Source: Rhodanobacter sp. LX-99
Lineage (GTDB): Bacteria > Pseudomonadota > Gammaproteobacteria > Xanthomonadales > Rhodanobacteraceae
Assembly (NCBI RefSeq): GCF_018599185.1
Contig: NZ_JAHFVL010000002.1
Location: forward strand, 674,041 to 738,040
Length of the DNA stretch: 64,000 nt
Direction: 5' to 3'
In this document: positions 30,304-36,191 of the stretch, piece after piece
Layout: every line of letters begins with the position of its first letter
Numbering within the stretch: the first letter of the stretch is position 1
Position numbers and translations under genes: made by a program
The notes under the pieces: model-generated
What the model saw: the letters and a program-made list of their open reading frames with translations, nothing else
What the model was told of the DNA's origin: nothing
Databases searched by the model: none

Positions 30304-31997
<1,694 letters not shown>

Positions 31998-32043: not shown

Positions 32044-32133
32044 GGAGAGATGGCCGAGCGGTTTAAGGCAGCAGTCTTGAAAACTGCCGTAGTGGTAACA
32101 CTACCGTGGGTTCGAATCCCACTCTCTCCGCCA
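32044..32133 (+). tRNA. tRNA-Ser (anticodon TGA)
   Basis: A 90-nt type II tRNA with a seven-pair acceptor stem (GGAGAGA at 32044-32050 with TCTCTCC) and encoded discriminator G plus CCA (32131-32133). The D arm is TGGCCGAGCGGTTTAAGGCA. The anticodon stem GCAGT/ACTGC encloses loop CTTGAAA with anticodon TGA at 32078-32080. The long variable arm and TTCGAAT T-loop are as in serine tRNAs. It reads UCA/UCG/UCU codons. Confidence 0.97.
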
Positions 32134-32215: not shown

Positions 32216-32632
32216 CTACGCTCGCGCGCGTGTTCCTTTCAAGCGTCCAGCTCCAGCCGCGGCGCTCTTCGCCTTCTTGGCGGCAGTAACTGCGACTGAC
32301 GTTTTGGGCTTCGCTGGCTTCTTTGTTGCTGCCGTGGCCTTCTGCTTGGTTACCGGTTTCACCGCCATCCGCAACCCAAGCGCGCGCACCACTTTCCCCA
32401 CAGTGGCATATCCGGGTGTTGCGCCTGGCTTCAGCGCCTTGTAGAGGCTCTCGCGGCCAACTCCGGCATCCTTGGCAAGTTGCGACATGCCGCGGGCTTT
32501 GGCTACGTGCCCAAGGGCCCGAAGGAACTCGTCGTCGTCGCCATCGGCCATCACCTGGGATAGATACTCGGCAATGGCTTCCTCGCTGTCCAGGTAGTCG
32601 GCAACATCGAAGGTCGTAAGTTGAAGGGCCAT
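32216..32632 (-). CDS. higA: HigA-type antitoxin (addiction module antidote, HTH) with basic C-terminal tail
   Basis: A 138-residue protein. The first about 90 residues match the probable addiction-module antidote family: FDVADYLDSEEAIAEYLSQ, DDEFLRALGHVAKARGMSQLAKDAGVGRESLYKALKPG and ATVGKVVRALGL, a Cro/C1-type HTH. A tail of about 48 residues rich in Lys and Ala follows (KQKATAATKKPAKPK, AAKKAKSAAAGAGR), unlike the usual roughly 95-105 residue length. The gene starts 1 base after the toxin stop. The partner and HTH predict an antitoxin that also represses the operon through the 18-bp palindrome upstream. Confidence 0.85.
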   Translation of the reverse strand: MALQLTTFDVADYLDSEEAIAEYLSQVMADGDDDEFLRALGHVAKARGMSQLAKDAGVGRESLYKALKPGATPGYATVGKVVRALGLRMAVKPVTKQKATAATKKPAKPKTSVAVTAAKKAKSAAAGAGRLKGTRARA

Positions 32633-32633
32633 G

Positions 32634-32927
32634 TCAGACCTCCTTTGCAAGCTGAGCGGCGCGCTTGATATCGCGCTGCTGGGTTTTCTTGTCGCCGCCG
32701 CATAACAGAATAACGATGGCGTTGCCCCGCAACGTGAAGTAGGTGCGGTAACCGGGGTCGACGTCGATCCGCATTTCAGAGACGCCCTCGCCAACGGGTT
32801 TCACATCACCCAGATTGCCGGTGGCAGCGCGATCAAGACGGCGTGCGATGGCGATGCGCGCCTTCAGGTCGCGCAAGCTCTTGTGCCAGACAGCGAACTC
32901 TTCCGTGAGCTGGACGATGTAGGGCAT
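32634..32927 (-). CDS. higB: HigB/RelE-type toxin (addiction module killer protein)
   Basis: A 97-residue protein of the RelE-like addiction-module killer family, predicted to be a ribosome-dependent mRNA interferase. Typical blocks are FAVWHKSLRDLKARIAIARRLDRA, GNLGDVKPVGEGVSEMRIDVDPGYRTYF and the C-terminal ILLCGGDKKTQQRDIKRA. Toxin-first order with the antitoxin immediately downstream is the usual HigBA arrangement. No Shine-Dalgarno sequence is placed well before ATG 32927, in keeping with a leaderless transcript. The operon is convergent with the tRNA-Ser terminator. Confidence 0.9.
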   Translation of the reverse strand: MPYIVQLTEEFAVWHKSLRDLKARIAIARRLDRAATGNLGDVKPVGEGVSEMRIDVDPGYRTYFTLRGNAIVILLCGGDKKTQQRDIKRAAQLAKEV

Positions 32928-32962: not shown

Positions 32963-33073
32963 GGACTTCGAATCACGCTAACCGGAGCTAATCAGGTCCG
33001 CGTCACTTTCCTGGCTCCATTCTGCAGATCGGCGCTATCGGCTCAGACCCGCGGGCACGGTGGCCCCATCGAC

Positions 33074-33367
33074 GCCGATATCCCAACAATCTCCGCCGAC
33101 CGAAATCCTCCCGGCATGGATATCCAGCGACCCGGCGCCGACCAAATTTCACTCGGCGGGGGCATCCGGATACTCGAAGTGGATGTCTGGATACCCCGGC
33201 GGGAATATCCGCCACTCGGTGCCGACTGACATGCCGTCGACGGGGATATCCCGGTACCTGGCGTCGACTGAAATCCAGTCGGCGGTGACGTTCCGACACC
33301 TGGCGGGGATGCGCGGCTACCCGACGCCGACTGAAATCCAGTCGGCGCCGATACGCCGCCCGGTCAA
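33074..33367. repeat. Array of about 14 imperfect 21-bp repeats
   Basis: The segment divides into fourteen consecutive 21-bp units without a phase break, and a more degenerate unit can be traced to about 33053. Two unit types occur. Type A, at 33095, 33137, 33221, 33263 and 33326, has the form GCCGACTG-N5-CAGTCGGC, a stem-loop; the copies at 33263 and 33326 differ by one base. Type B fills the other positions and carries GGGATATCCC-like or related cores. A and B partly alternate, giving 42-bp spacing. No unique spacers are present. No stop occurs within the array in the TonB-receptor frame or in one minus-strand frame. Located between higBA and the TonB-dependent receptor. Confidence 0.9.
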
Positions 33368-33527
33368 GACGATCGGTGGTGCGGCTGACGGCGTGCCGCA
33401 GAGGCCCGCCGGTCGCCGGCAGGGTGATTTCACGCACGCAATCCCAACAAGAGGCTTTTTTGGCGAAAAAAGTCGGAGTAGCTTGCCGAAGGGGGATACA
33501 GAGGCCAATGAGAGGGGGGGAAAGAAG

Positions 33528-36191
33528 ATGCTCAACCATACAGGTGTCAACGTAGTGCTTTTGCGCGCGGTGCGGGCGGCGCTTGCCGCCGCCACGCTGC
33601 TCGCGTGTTCGGCGCAGGCGCAGGATCCGGGAGCGTCGGACAGCAGGCAGGCCACGGCCCGCCAGGCGAGCGGAACGCAGGAACGCAGCAATGCGGAGAA
33701 AGAAAAGTCGACCACCAACCTGCAGGAGGTCGTGGTGACCGGCACGCATCGGGCCGGCCTGTCGCCGACCGAGTCCATCTCGCCGATCGACGCGTTCAGC
33801 GGCAGCCAGATCGCGAACCAGCCATCGGCGGATTTGACCGATGCGCTGACCAATATCGTGCCGTCGCTGACCACCCAGCGCTTTCCCATCGCCGACGGCA
33901 CGGCGTTCGTGCGGCCGGTGTCGTTGCGCAACCTGTCGCCCGACCAGACCCTGGTGCTGGTCGACGGCGTGCGCTTCCATCGTTCGGCGTTGGTCAACCT
34001 GCAGATCGATCCGCTCGGCACCTTCAACCAGGGCGCGCAGGCGGTCGATTTCTCGGTGTTTCCGTCCAACGCGATCGAGCGCGTCGAGGTGCTGCGCGAC
34101 GGTGCCTCGGTGCTGTACGGATCGGATGCGATCGCCGGCGTGGTCAACGTCATCCTCAAGAAGGCACCCACGGGCGTGACGGTCAGCGCGGAGCTGGGCA
34201 AGTACGGCAAGGGCGATGGCAATCTGCGGCGCTACGACGCCGACGCGGGGCTCCCGCTCGGCACCGACGGCTTCGTGCACGTGAGCGCCGAGCGCGAGAC
34301 GACCGACCCCACCTCGCGCGGCGTGCCGCAGGGCGGCGCGGCGGCCGTCGCGGCGGTGGTGGGCGCGAACCTGGTGCCGTACGACGGCCTCGGCCAGCGC
34401 TGGGGTGACCCGCAGACCAAGACGAACAAACTGTTCGTCAACGCGGGCCTGCCGCTGACCGGCGATGTGCAGCTTTACGGTTATGGCAGCTTCATGGACA
34501 AGAAGGTGTTGTCCAGCTTCTTCTATCGCAACCCGGTACTGTCGCCGCAGTACGGCATCAGCGGTCGTTCGACGCTGGTCAGTTATGCCGACGGCACCCT
34601 GACACCCGCAGACGCGCCGCAGTCGCTGGTGGACAGCATCGTGGCGGGCGGCGGCAACCCGGCGAATTACCTGACAGCCAACGCCGCGAGCCCGAGTGGC
34701 TGGGTGCTGCTCAATCCGATCTACACGAAGTTCCCTGGCGGCTACAGCCCGCTGTTCGGCGCCGACATCGCCGATCACCAGCTGGTCGGCGGCGTGCGCG
34801 GCGGCGGGCAGAGCAATCTGCAGTGGGACGTGCACTACCGTACCGGCAGCAACGAGGTCGACTACCGGCTGCAGGGTTCGATCAACCCGAGCCTGGGCAG
34901 CCTTTCGCCCACGAGCTTCCGCCCCGGCAAGCTGACCCAGCGCGAGCAGGGTGCAGGCGCGGATTTCGTCCGTTCGTTCGACAACTCGCCGCTCACGCTC
35001 GCCTTCGGCGCGCAGTGGCGCCAGGAAACCTACATCATCCACCAGGGCGATCCGGGTTCGACCGAGGTGGGGCCGACCGCGTCGGTGTTCGGCGTGGGGT
35101 CGGACGCCTTCCAGGGCTTTCCGGCCAACGCGGCGGGGAGGTTCACGCAGAACAGCGATTCTGCCTACTTCGACGCCGAGACGAACCTCACCGACAAGTG
35201 GTCGGGTGCGGCGGCGGTGCGCTACGAGCATGCGGACGGCTACGGTTCCAAGGTGGTGTACAAGCTTTCCAGCCGTTACGCGTTCACCGACGCGTTCGCG
35301 CTGCGCGGTACGTACAACACCGGCTTCCGCACACCGACCCCGGGCCAGGCAAACACGCTGAATGTCACCACCACGGCGAACGCCCAGGGCGGCCTGATTC
35401 CCAGCGGCACCTATCCGGTCGACAACCCGGTGGCGCGCGCGCTCGGCTCGACGCCGCTGAAGACCGAAACGTCGAAGAGCCTGTCCGTGGGCGCCGTGTG
35501 GACGCCGGTCGACAACCTCACGACCACCCTGGACTACTACCGGATCAGGATCGACGACCGCATCGGCCTGGTCAGCAACAGCGTGACCCAGGCTACCGTC
35601 GACCAACTCGCCGCCGGCGGTTACCCGAACGCGCAGCTGCTGCTCGGCAGCGACGCCAGCTATTTCGGCAATGCGTTCGGATCCGACATCCACGGCATCG
35701 ACTTCGTGGTCGACACAAGGCACCAGCTGGGCAACGGCACGCTCAACGTCGACTTCCGCTACAACCGCAATACGCAGAACGTGGTCAAGGTACAGCCGGA
35801 CACGCTCAACAACGATTTCGTGTACGACCTCGAACACCAGGTGCCCAAGAGCCGGTCGGTGCTCAGCTTCGACTACGGGCTGCACCGGTTCGACGCCATC
35901 GCGCGGATCAACCATTACGGCGGCTGGAGCACCACGGTCGGTTTGTTCGGCAGCAACAATCCGCCGGACGACGTGAATCACTACAGCGGCAAGACGCTGC
36001 TCGACCTGGAGGCGCGTTACAAGTTCAACGACACCTTCTCGGTGGCGGTCGGAGGCAACAACGTCTTCAACACCTACCCCGGCAAGGAGCAGAACGGCAC
36101 GCTGCAATTCCTTGGCGTCAAGTACGCGCTCACCTCGCCATTCGGTTTCAACGGCGCGTTCTGGTACGTGCGCATGACGGCCAGCTTCTGA
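33528..36191 (+). CDS. TonB-dependent outer-membrane receptor
   Basis: An 887-residue outer-membrane transporter. A signal peptide of about 32 residues ends at SAQAQ. The plug domain follows: LQEVVVTGTHR, a TonB-box-like element at the N-terminus, LVLVDGVRFHRS, IERVEVLRDGASVLYGSDAIAGVVNVILKK. A 22-strand-type barrel ends in an aromatic residue (MTASF), as required for outer-membrane assembly. The C-terminal region RYKFNDTFSVAVGGNNVFNTYPG is typical. The substrate is unknown; no siderophore or sugar gene is adjacent. A strong purine-rich ribosome binding site (GAGGGGGGGAAAGAAG region) precedes ATG 33528. The same frame stays open upstream through the repeat array, but the signal peptide and SD fix the start. 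Confidence 0.93.
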   Translation: MLNHTGVNVVLLRAVRAALAAATLLACSAQAQDPGASDSRQATARQASGTQERSNAEKEKSTTNLQEVVVTGTHRAGLSPTESISPIDAFSGSQIANQPSADLTDALTNIVPSLTTQRFPIADGTAFVRPVSLRNLSPDQTLVLVDGVRFHRSALVNLQIDPLGTFNQGAQAVDFSVFPSNAIERVEVLRDGASVLYGSDAIAGVVNVILKKAPTGVTVSAELGKYGKGDGNLRRYDADAGLPLGTDGFVHVSAERETTDPTSRGVPQGGAAAVAAVVGANLVPYDGLGQRWGDPQTKTNKLFVNAGLPLTGDVQLYGYGSFMDKKVLSSFFYRNPVLSPQYGISGRSTLVSYADGTLTPADAPQSLVDSIVAGGGNPANYLTANAASPSGWVLLNPIYTKFPGGYSPLFGADIADHQLVGGVRGGGQSNLQWDVHYRTGSNEVDYRLQGSINPSLGSLSPTSFRPGKLTQREQGAGADFVRSFDNSPLTLAFGAQWRQETYIIHQGDPGSTEVGPTASVFGVGSDAFQGFPANAAGRFTQNSDSAYFDAETNLTDKWSGAAAVRYEHADGYGSKVVYKLSSRYAFTDAFALRGTYNTGFRTPTPGQANTLNVTTTANAQGGLIPSGTYPVDNPVARALGSTPLKTETSKSLSVGAVWTPVDNLTTTLDYYRIRIDDRIGLVSNSVTQATVDQLAAGGYPNAQLLLGSDASYFGNAFGSDIHGIDFVVDTRHQLGNGTLNVDFRYNRNTQNVVKVQPDTLNNDFVYDLEHQVPKSRSVLSFDYGLHRFDAIARINHYGGWSTTVGLFGSNNPPDDVNHYSGKTLLDLEARYKFNDTFSVAVGGNNVFNTYPGKEQNGTLQFLGVKYALTSPFGFNGAFWYVRMTASF

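Follow-up and report, generated by a model that had tools for sequence, protein, structure and literature searches.

The 64,000-nucleotide stretch of Rhodanobacter sp. LX-99 analyzed here (contig NZ_JAHFVL010000002.1, positions 674,041 to 738,040; hereafter the window) carries at 33074..33367 an array of 14 imperfect units of 21 base pairs (bp). We propose, at a probability of about 0.52, that it represents the repeat half of a chromosomal gene-plus-array cassette, in a copy that is here orphaned and in decay; this reading includes the units being dyad sites. An intact cassette would consist of a gene for an all-helical protein of ~160 amino acids (aa) and an adjoining array of 21-bp units, which are probably dyad DNA sites two helical turns apart. 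Each unit may be bound by the partner protein or by a complex that needs it. A spacing of 21 bp places successive sites on the same helical face, which would let the protein polymerise or form bridges along the length of the array. In the window, the copy would have lost, or never had, its own gene at this place and would now be drifting. The cassette was found in no library or paper searched and is undescribed; a search of the open literature returned nothing visibly on this protein family. An earlier note, made from the letters of the window, had described the array, whose link to a partner gene is beyond what the window sequence could reveal.

The periodicity in the window is real. All 14 units keep the 21-bp register, with self-match fractions of 0.41 to 0.57 at lags 21, 42, 63, 84, 105, and 126 and of 0.19 to 0.36 at the other lags between 5 and 129. 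Among 252-bp stretches of the whole window and lags of 10 to 79, the strongest was lag 21 at 33065, with a self-match of 0.484, compared with maxima of 0.364 to 0.390 in 10 Markov shuffles. At score 40 the array was missed by Tandem Repeats Finder, presumably because its units are too diverged. The five units that the earlier note had called A-type stem-loops lie at 33095..33115 (6 of 10 dyad pairs), 33137..33157 (7), 33221..33241 (6), 33263..33283 (8), and 33326..33346 (9), none assigned to a strand, and they stand apart from the other nine units, which have 2 to 4 pairs. Their alternation with B-type units gives a 42-bp rhythm that is partial, as had been claimed. The last unit (33347-33367) is degenerate, and the consensus at unit junctions reads TCGGC followed by GNNGA. 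A model of the array scored no other stretch of the window above 10.4 bits, and at the Rfam gathering score the sole match in the window was a tRNA, leaving the array unmatched.

Two other genomes of the genus (G022 and G009; loci L005 and L006) carry an orthologous array at the corresponding place, upstream of a TonB receptor gene that all three share. The three receptor-linked arrays align over 306 bp with 0 indels at about 88 to 90% identity, bearing out the suggestion of the earlier note that length is kept more strongly than sequence. The array is also no isolated occurrence without conserved phase; arrays that keep the register were found both in these relatives and at a second locus. 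The latter was located when one A-type unit of the window, allowing up to 3 mismatches, matched a second place in G022 and in G063, where periodicity revealed another array. A sequence-only four-unit model, trained on the receptor-linked arrays and on the second locus of G022 and G063, then recovered the second locus in two genomes absent from the training set, G009 (E = 3.6e-9) and G021 (E = 8.1e-13). Strong arrays of this model occurred in 5 of the 45 genus genomes, with at most two per genome, and no other genome exceeded 24 bits; the matches of 20 to 24 bits were looked at in part, and the two concerned (L067 and L068, at 22.3 and 20.5 bits) are 21-bp arrays of another unit type.

All four second-locus arrays immediately adjoin the 3' end of a gene encoding a 161-aa protein, the contig of G063 ending inside the gene. 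Mean unit identity between the window and second-locus arrays is 0.49 to 0.50, compared with 0.32 to 0.40 between the window array and other array types and 0.31 to 0.33 between it and two random window stretches. The two kinds of array have the unit pattern G[GC][GC]GAY...TCGRC in common, and their unit order is unshared in 10 of 12 comparisons. At one second-locus site (L066), a pair of REP-like palindromes of the ATTCCGGCGAAGGCCGGAAT type lies upstream of the array.

The association of gene and array was measured in the flanks of 43 family matches (at most 900 bp to either side) by finding the strongest period among 12 to 60. These loci comprise all 26 genus matches, 4 of 9 from a search of relatives, and 13 of 15 class-wide matches, the remainder being the same places again. 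They include orthologues and two gene pieces (L093, at a contig end, and L100), and L090 and L112, whose figures are identical, are therefore probably one place. A period of 21 or 42 bp ranked first at 39 of the 43 family loci, compared with 1 of 33 control loci; among 194 random window stretches it did so in 28, and the lag-21 values of such stretches never exceeded 0.50. The same measure reached at least 0.50 at 34 of 43 family loci and at 1 of 33 controls. One control (L157 in G028) carries an array-less family gene, and another (L146) was dropped as too short. In many family loci the top period is 42 bp.

The arrays beside family genes measure about 160 to 550 bp and lie 3' of the gene in 29 of the 37 measured and 5' in 8, the 5' cases belonging mostly to one subfamily. 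Unit sequence is wholly different between loci, with centres such as GACTGAAATTCAGTC, GAGGTTCGGAACCTC, and CCGAGCTTTTTGCTCGG, while the length remains 21. Family loci also came from three other genera of the class, and in Fibrimonas termitidis (Fibrobacterota) an array was present at both loci examined (0.80 and 0.50). At one locus (L095) the family gene has an in-frame stop and the top period of the flank is 43 rather than 42; gene and register seem to decay together there.

Searches of Pfam, NCBIfam, PHROGs, and PADLOC assigned the partner protein to no family, and PDB sequences include no relative of it; its best stray matches had E values of 0.0086 (Pfam, in 1 of 24 members), 0.27 (PHROGs), and 0.16 (PDB). 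No transposase was matched in the family searches, Pfam included. An AlphaFold2 model is all-helical, with a mean pLDDT of 89 and a pTM of 0.70. Within the genus there are 26 family matches in 15 of 45 genomes, 6 of which have two or more; three subfamilies were grouped, the others being 26 to 30% identical to the first sequence. Counting the genome of the window itself, the family was present in 4 of 369 genomes of a class-wide draw (2 to 6 matches each, some broken) and in 2 of 398 genomes of a phylum-wide draw. When a profile was run against a protein collection, 7994 candidates were scored and 1201 clusters reached E ≤ 1e-8; all names shown among 120 listed clusters were hypothetical or uncharacterized protein. 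One family member had no relative in phage and plasmid collections, and the family profile had none among viral contigs.

Neither a family gene nor a remnant of one was found in the 64-kilobase (kb) window (the lowest E values were 0.09 by tblastn and 4.4 by profile), hence our description of its array as an orphan. The window copy has the unit type and the 21-bp register of gene-linked arrays and lacks the family gene. Two other family genes in the same genome (L089 and L101) have arrays of other unit types, and the orphan is perhaps still served in trans by these two proteins. Another candidate orphan was seen at L067 (G034:C34, about 1386-1554), a 21-bp array of the GAGGTTCGGAACCTC type in a genome without a family match; it adjoins an open reading frame (ORF) that by eye resembles an integron-type tyrosine recombinase.

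Comparisons of orthologous arrays point to whole-unit change and, at the second locus, to position-specific constraint. Indels inside orthologous 3' arrays are 21, 63, or 84 bp long, and gaps of 1, 2, 16, 20, and 22 bp are confined to array edges or to the DNA beyond. The register does have exceptions, one subfamily array having internal gaps of 1 and 15 bp. The 3' array of L087 is longer than that of L099 by 84 bp (four units) that nearly repeat the preceding units, an apparent recent duplication. At a locus beside an ECF-sigma gene, compared in 27 genomes (27 of 30 fetched loci; L144, L146, and L159 were left out), gene plus array is whole in 4 and truncated in 1; one further genome lacks the array, and in 21 the 1.5 kb examined contains neither part. 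All 27 match in the DNA on the ECF side. It seems, therefore, that the cassette is gained and lost as a block.

At the second locus, divergence among four genomes was compared between junction positions (1, 4, 5, 18, 19, and 21) and centre positions (7-16) of the unit. Between clades it was 0.096 at junctions and 0.519 at centres (p = 2e-4), and within clades, where the depth approximates that of the window comparison, 0.071 and 0.200 (p = 0.0016). The corresponding values for the window array are 0.091 and 0.098 (p = 0.42). In a test without any picking of positions, greater homogeneity among units went with lower divergence: r was -0.86 at the second locus, -0.57 at the ECF locus (p = 0.003), and -0.47 over 6 units of the SQNL arrays (p = 0.02). 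In the window array the relation was unconvincing (r = -0.24; p = 0.14). The second-locus-like units of the window array, its lack of junction constraint, and the missing family gene together lead us to regard it as an orphan of a related type that is drifting.

Dyad pairing in the unit consensus was stronger (p < 0.05) than after column-order shuffling in 25 of the 36 rows, and pairing of arms within a unit exceeded that of arms dealt among units at p < 0.05 in 9 of 36; combined over 22 locus groups by Fisher's method, p was 0.0015 when the least favourable row of each group was used and 4e-5 with median rows. Dyad cells read on the gene-sense strand contain 414 G-T (505 expected) and 362 A-C (417 expected) oppositions. 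Pairing in RNA would give more G-T than A-C on that strand; with no such bias among these non-Watson-Crick cells, the result favours dyads kept as double-stranded DNA and disfavours the structured RNA suggested by the earlier note. Of the four readings offered there, a protein-binding array fares best, although we infer this rather than observe it.

Several results weigh against our proposal. The dyad signal of the window array itself is not significant, its row being outside the 25 significant ones and pairing over all 14 units being 0.443, compared with 0.406 when arms were dealt among units (p = 0.16). Four family loci (L092, L095, L124, and L125) have another top period, and 5 of the 39 period matches (L098, L100, L108, L116, and L132) are weak, at < 0.50. 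Junction positions were picked from the pooled unit consensus and the strong junction test comes from one locus, while two 5' NLVD arrays were unconvincing in the homogeneity test (r = -0.29, p = 0.10; r = 0.44, p = 0.98). With only about 10% divergence in the window comparison, weak constraint might escape notice. Fold searches of solved structures gave no convincing match that suggests DNA binding by the partner protein, and arrays whose unit centres differ adjoin genes for proteins that are 81% identical, which would leave only the unit ends for any recognition. Finally, runs of T are abundant on the gene-sense strand, with 184 TTTT compared with 8 AAAA in 37 arrays, some of them in the flanks, and these fit a transcribed array as well.

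That last point bears on the strongest competitor, which we regard as possible but distinctly less probable: transcripts of the arrays may be cleaved into small RNAs that the helical protein uses, much as in TIGR-Tas although the protein is unrelated. Transcription would explain the T-runs, and the geometry is close to that reported for TIGR arrays (PMC12045711). The 42-bp top period of many loci also fits, as do conserved junctions with variable centres. Against it, 24 family members searched against Pfam at E ≤ 0.1 listed three families, none of them Nop, and the centres recur as palindromes such as TGAAATTCA instead of forming unique spacers. The lack of a G-T excess is likewise unfavourable, and the sense strand had the lower folding energy in 15 of 33 arrays (mean z, -1.5 for sense and -2.0 for antisense). 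In some loci a terminator hairpin with a T-run, identified by eye, stands between gene and array. A broader statement, to which we give even odds, would embrace either use of the array: the family of ~160-aa helical proteins, present in at least two phyla and often in several copies per genome, and the palindromic 21-bp arrays would form an undescribed system, be it a two-turn DNA scaffold or an RNA array of neither the Nop nor the Cas kind, with the window array as its orphan.

A little less probable than transcription into small RNAs is an ordinary minisatellite, in which slippage makes and unmakes units that have no function and hitch-hiking accounts for the link to the gene. Units gained and lost in steps of 21, the neutral pattern of the window copy, the patchy distribution, and the two 5' arrays without a junction effect are all what slippage would leave. 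It does not readily account for one unit length over unrelated sequences in 39 of 43 loci, nor for the dyads, and it predicts uniform decay over the unit, whereas constraint in a gene-linked array is position specific. A 21-bp pitch that outlives total change of the repeat beside one protein family is the trace expected of a system that reads DNA geometry or of a short-repeat RNA system.

It is highly improbable that the array serves as the regulatory region of the TonB receptor. The receptor gene (33528..36191, plus strand), a neighbour outside the array system, is separated from the array by 33368..33527 (plus strand), so that the array stands ~160 bp upstream of its start in the window, and the array lies upstream of the same receptor in the two other genomes. 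The receptor is present in 12 of 45 genus genomes, however, and 9 of them lack the array, leaving 3 with it. The 75 to 150 bp adjoining the start codon still match the window in 7 of those 9 (the match is only 15 bp in G025 and none in G013), which also tells against the receptor leader proposed in the earlier note. In G009 the flanking DNA on both sides of the array is replaced or interrupted, and an insert separates the array from the receptor.

The frames described in the earlier note fared unevenly in these relatives. The receptor-phase frame is open across the array in all three genomes, as had been observed for the window, but in G022 it stops short of the receptor and does not join it; the receptor frame is 1069 aa long in the window, 995 aa in G009, and 891 aa in G022. 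The minus-strand heptad frame is open in the window and has one stop in each relative, within the array in G009 and at the array edge in G022. A coding heptad repeat on either strand, for which the open frames and the equality of 21 bp with seven codons speak, is the least probable reading of all, since neither the G022 receptor-phase frame nor the interrupted minus frame fits it and the synonymous share of changes (0.17 to 0.43, compared with 0.28 to 0.32 expected; no formal test) is close to neutral expectation and raised consistently in none of the six frames.

On its other side the array is flanked by a Gp49-like toxin and HI1420-like antidote pair (32216..32927, minus strand), conserved in G022 and replaced in G009. 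The Gp49-like addiction-module toxin (32634-32927, minus strand) adjoins the orphan array, and in G022 a similar toxin-like protein, noted by eye in the 3' flank of L108, is encoded just 3' of one family gene, which may be chance. Between the toxin-antitoxin pair and seryl-tRNA synthetase (30331-31617) is a tRNA-Ser(TGA) gene (32044-32133, plus strand), and the block common to the window and G022 begins shortly after this gene, a possible integration site.

If our proposal is correct, it adds a kind of gene-plus-array system and would account for some unannotated repeat stretches that read as heptad ORFs. The partner is a small protein with a confident structure prediction, and its gene occurs in cultured soil bacteria. 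Among known systems, iteron and centromere arrays (parS and plasmid iterons) consist of helically spaced direct repeats beside the gene for a binding protein. The arrays described here are comparable in having spaced repeats beside a gene, and binding by the partner would extend the analogy; they differ in that the family member searched had no match in a plasmid collection. Minisatellites, or variable-number tandem repeats, share the head-to-tail units and the gain and loss of whole units but not a single unit length held over unrelated sequences beside one protein family, nor position-specific constraint, seen here at at least one locus.

The REP and BIME elements with their RAYT genes, as presented in a published account (PMC2817692), also combine short imperfect palindromes in regular clusters with a linked gene. 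Identity with them fails on three points: the window and second-locus units lack the GTAG/GTGG head given there, a few tandem arrays per genome contrast with many scattered REP copies, and the linked protein is by Pfam no transposase, whereas RAYT is a (tyrosine) transposase.

In TIGR arrays, according to their report, two alternating repeats of 8 to 12 nucleotides with 9-nucleotide spacers lie up- or downstream of a gene, and the repeats are conserved within a locus and different between loci (PMC12045711). TIGR-Tas systems are further characterised by a Nop-domain Tas protein and by processed RNAs of 36 nucleotides. The differences from TIGR-Tas lie in the partner, here ~160 aa long without a Nop match and, as far as one member and the family profile were searched, without a relative in phage, plasmid, and viral-contig collections, and in the 21-bp unit, whose centres recur and are palindromic, with 42-bp alternation and conserved junctions also present. 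On the side of likeness, both have a single gene beside short alternating repeats, an array on either side of it, and repeats specific to the locus. TIGR-like RNA arrays are the closest published architecture in the literature consulted.
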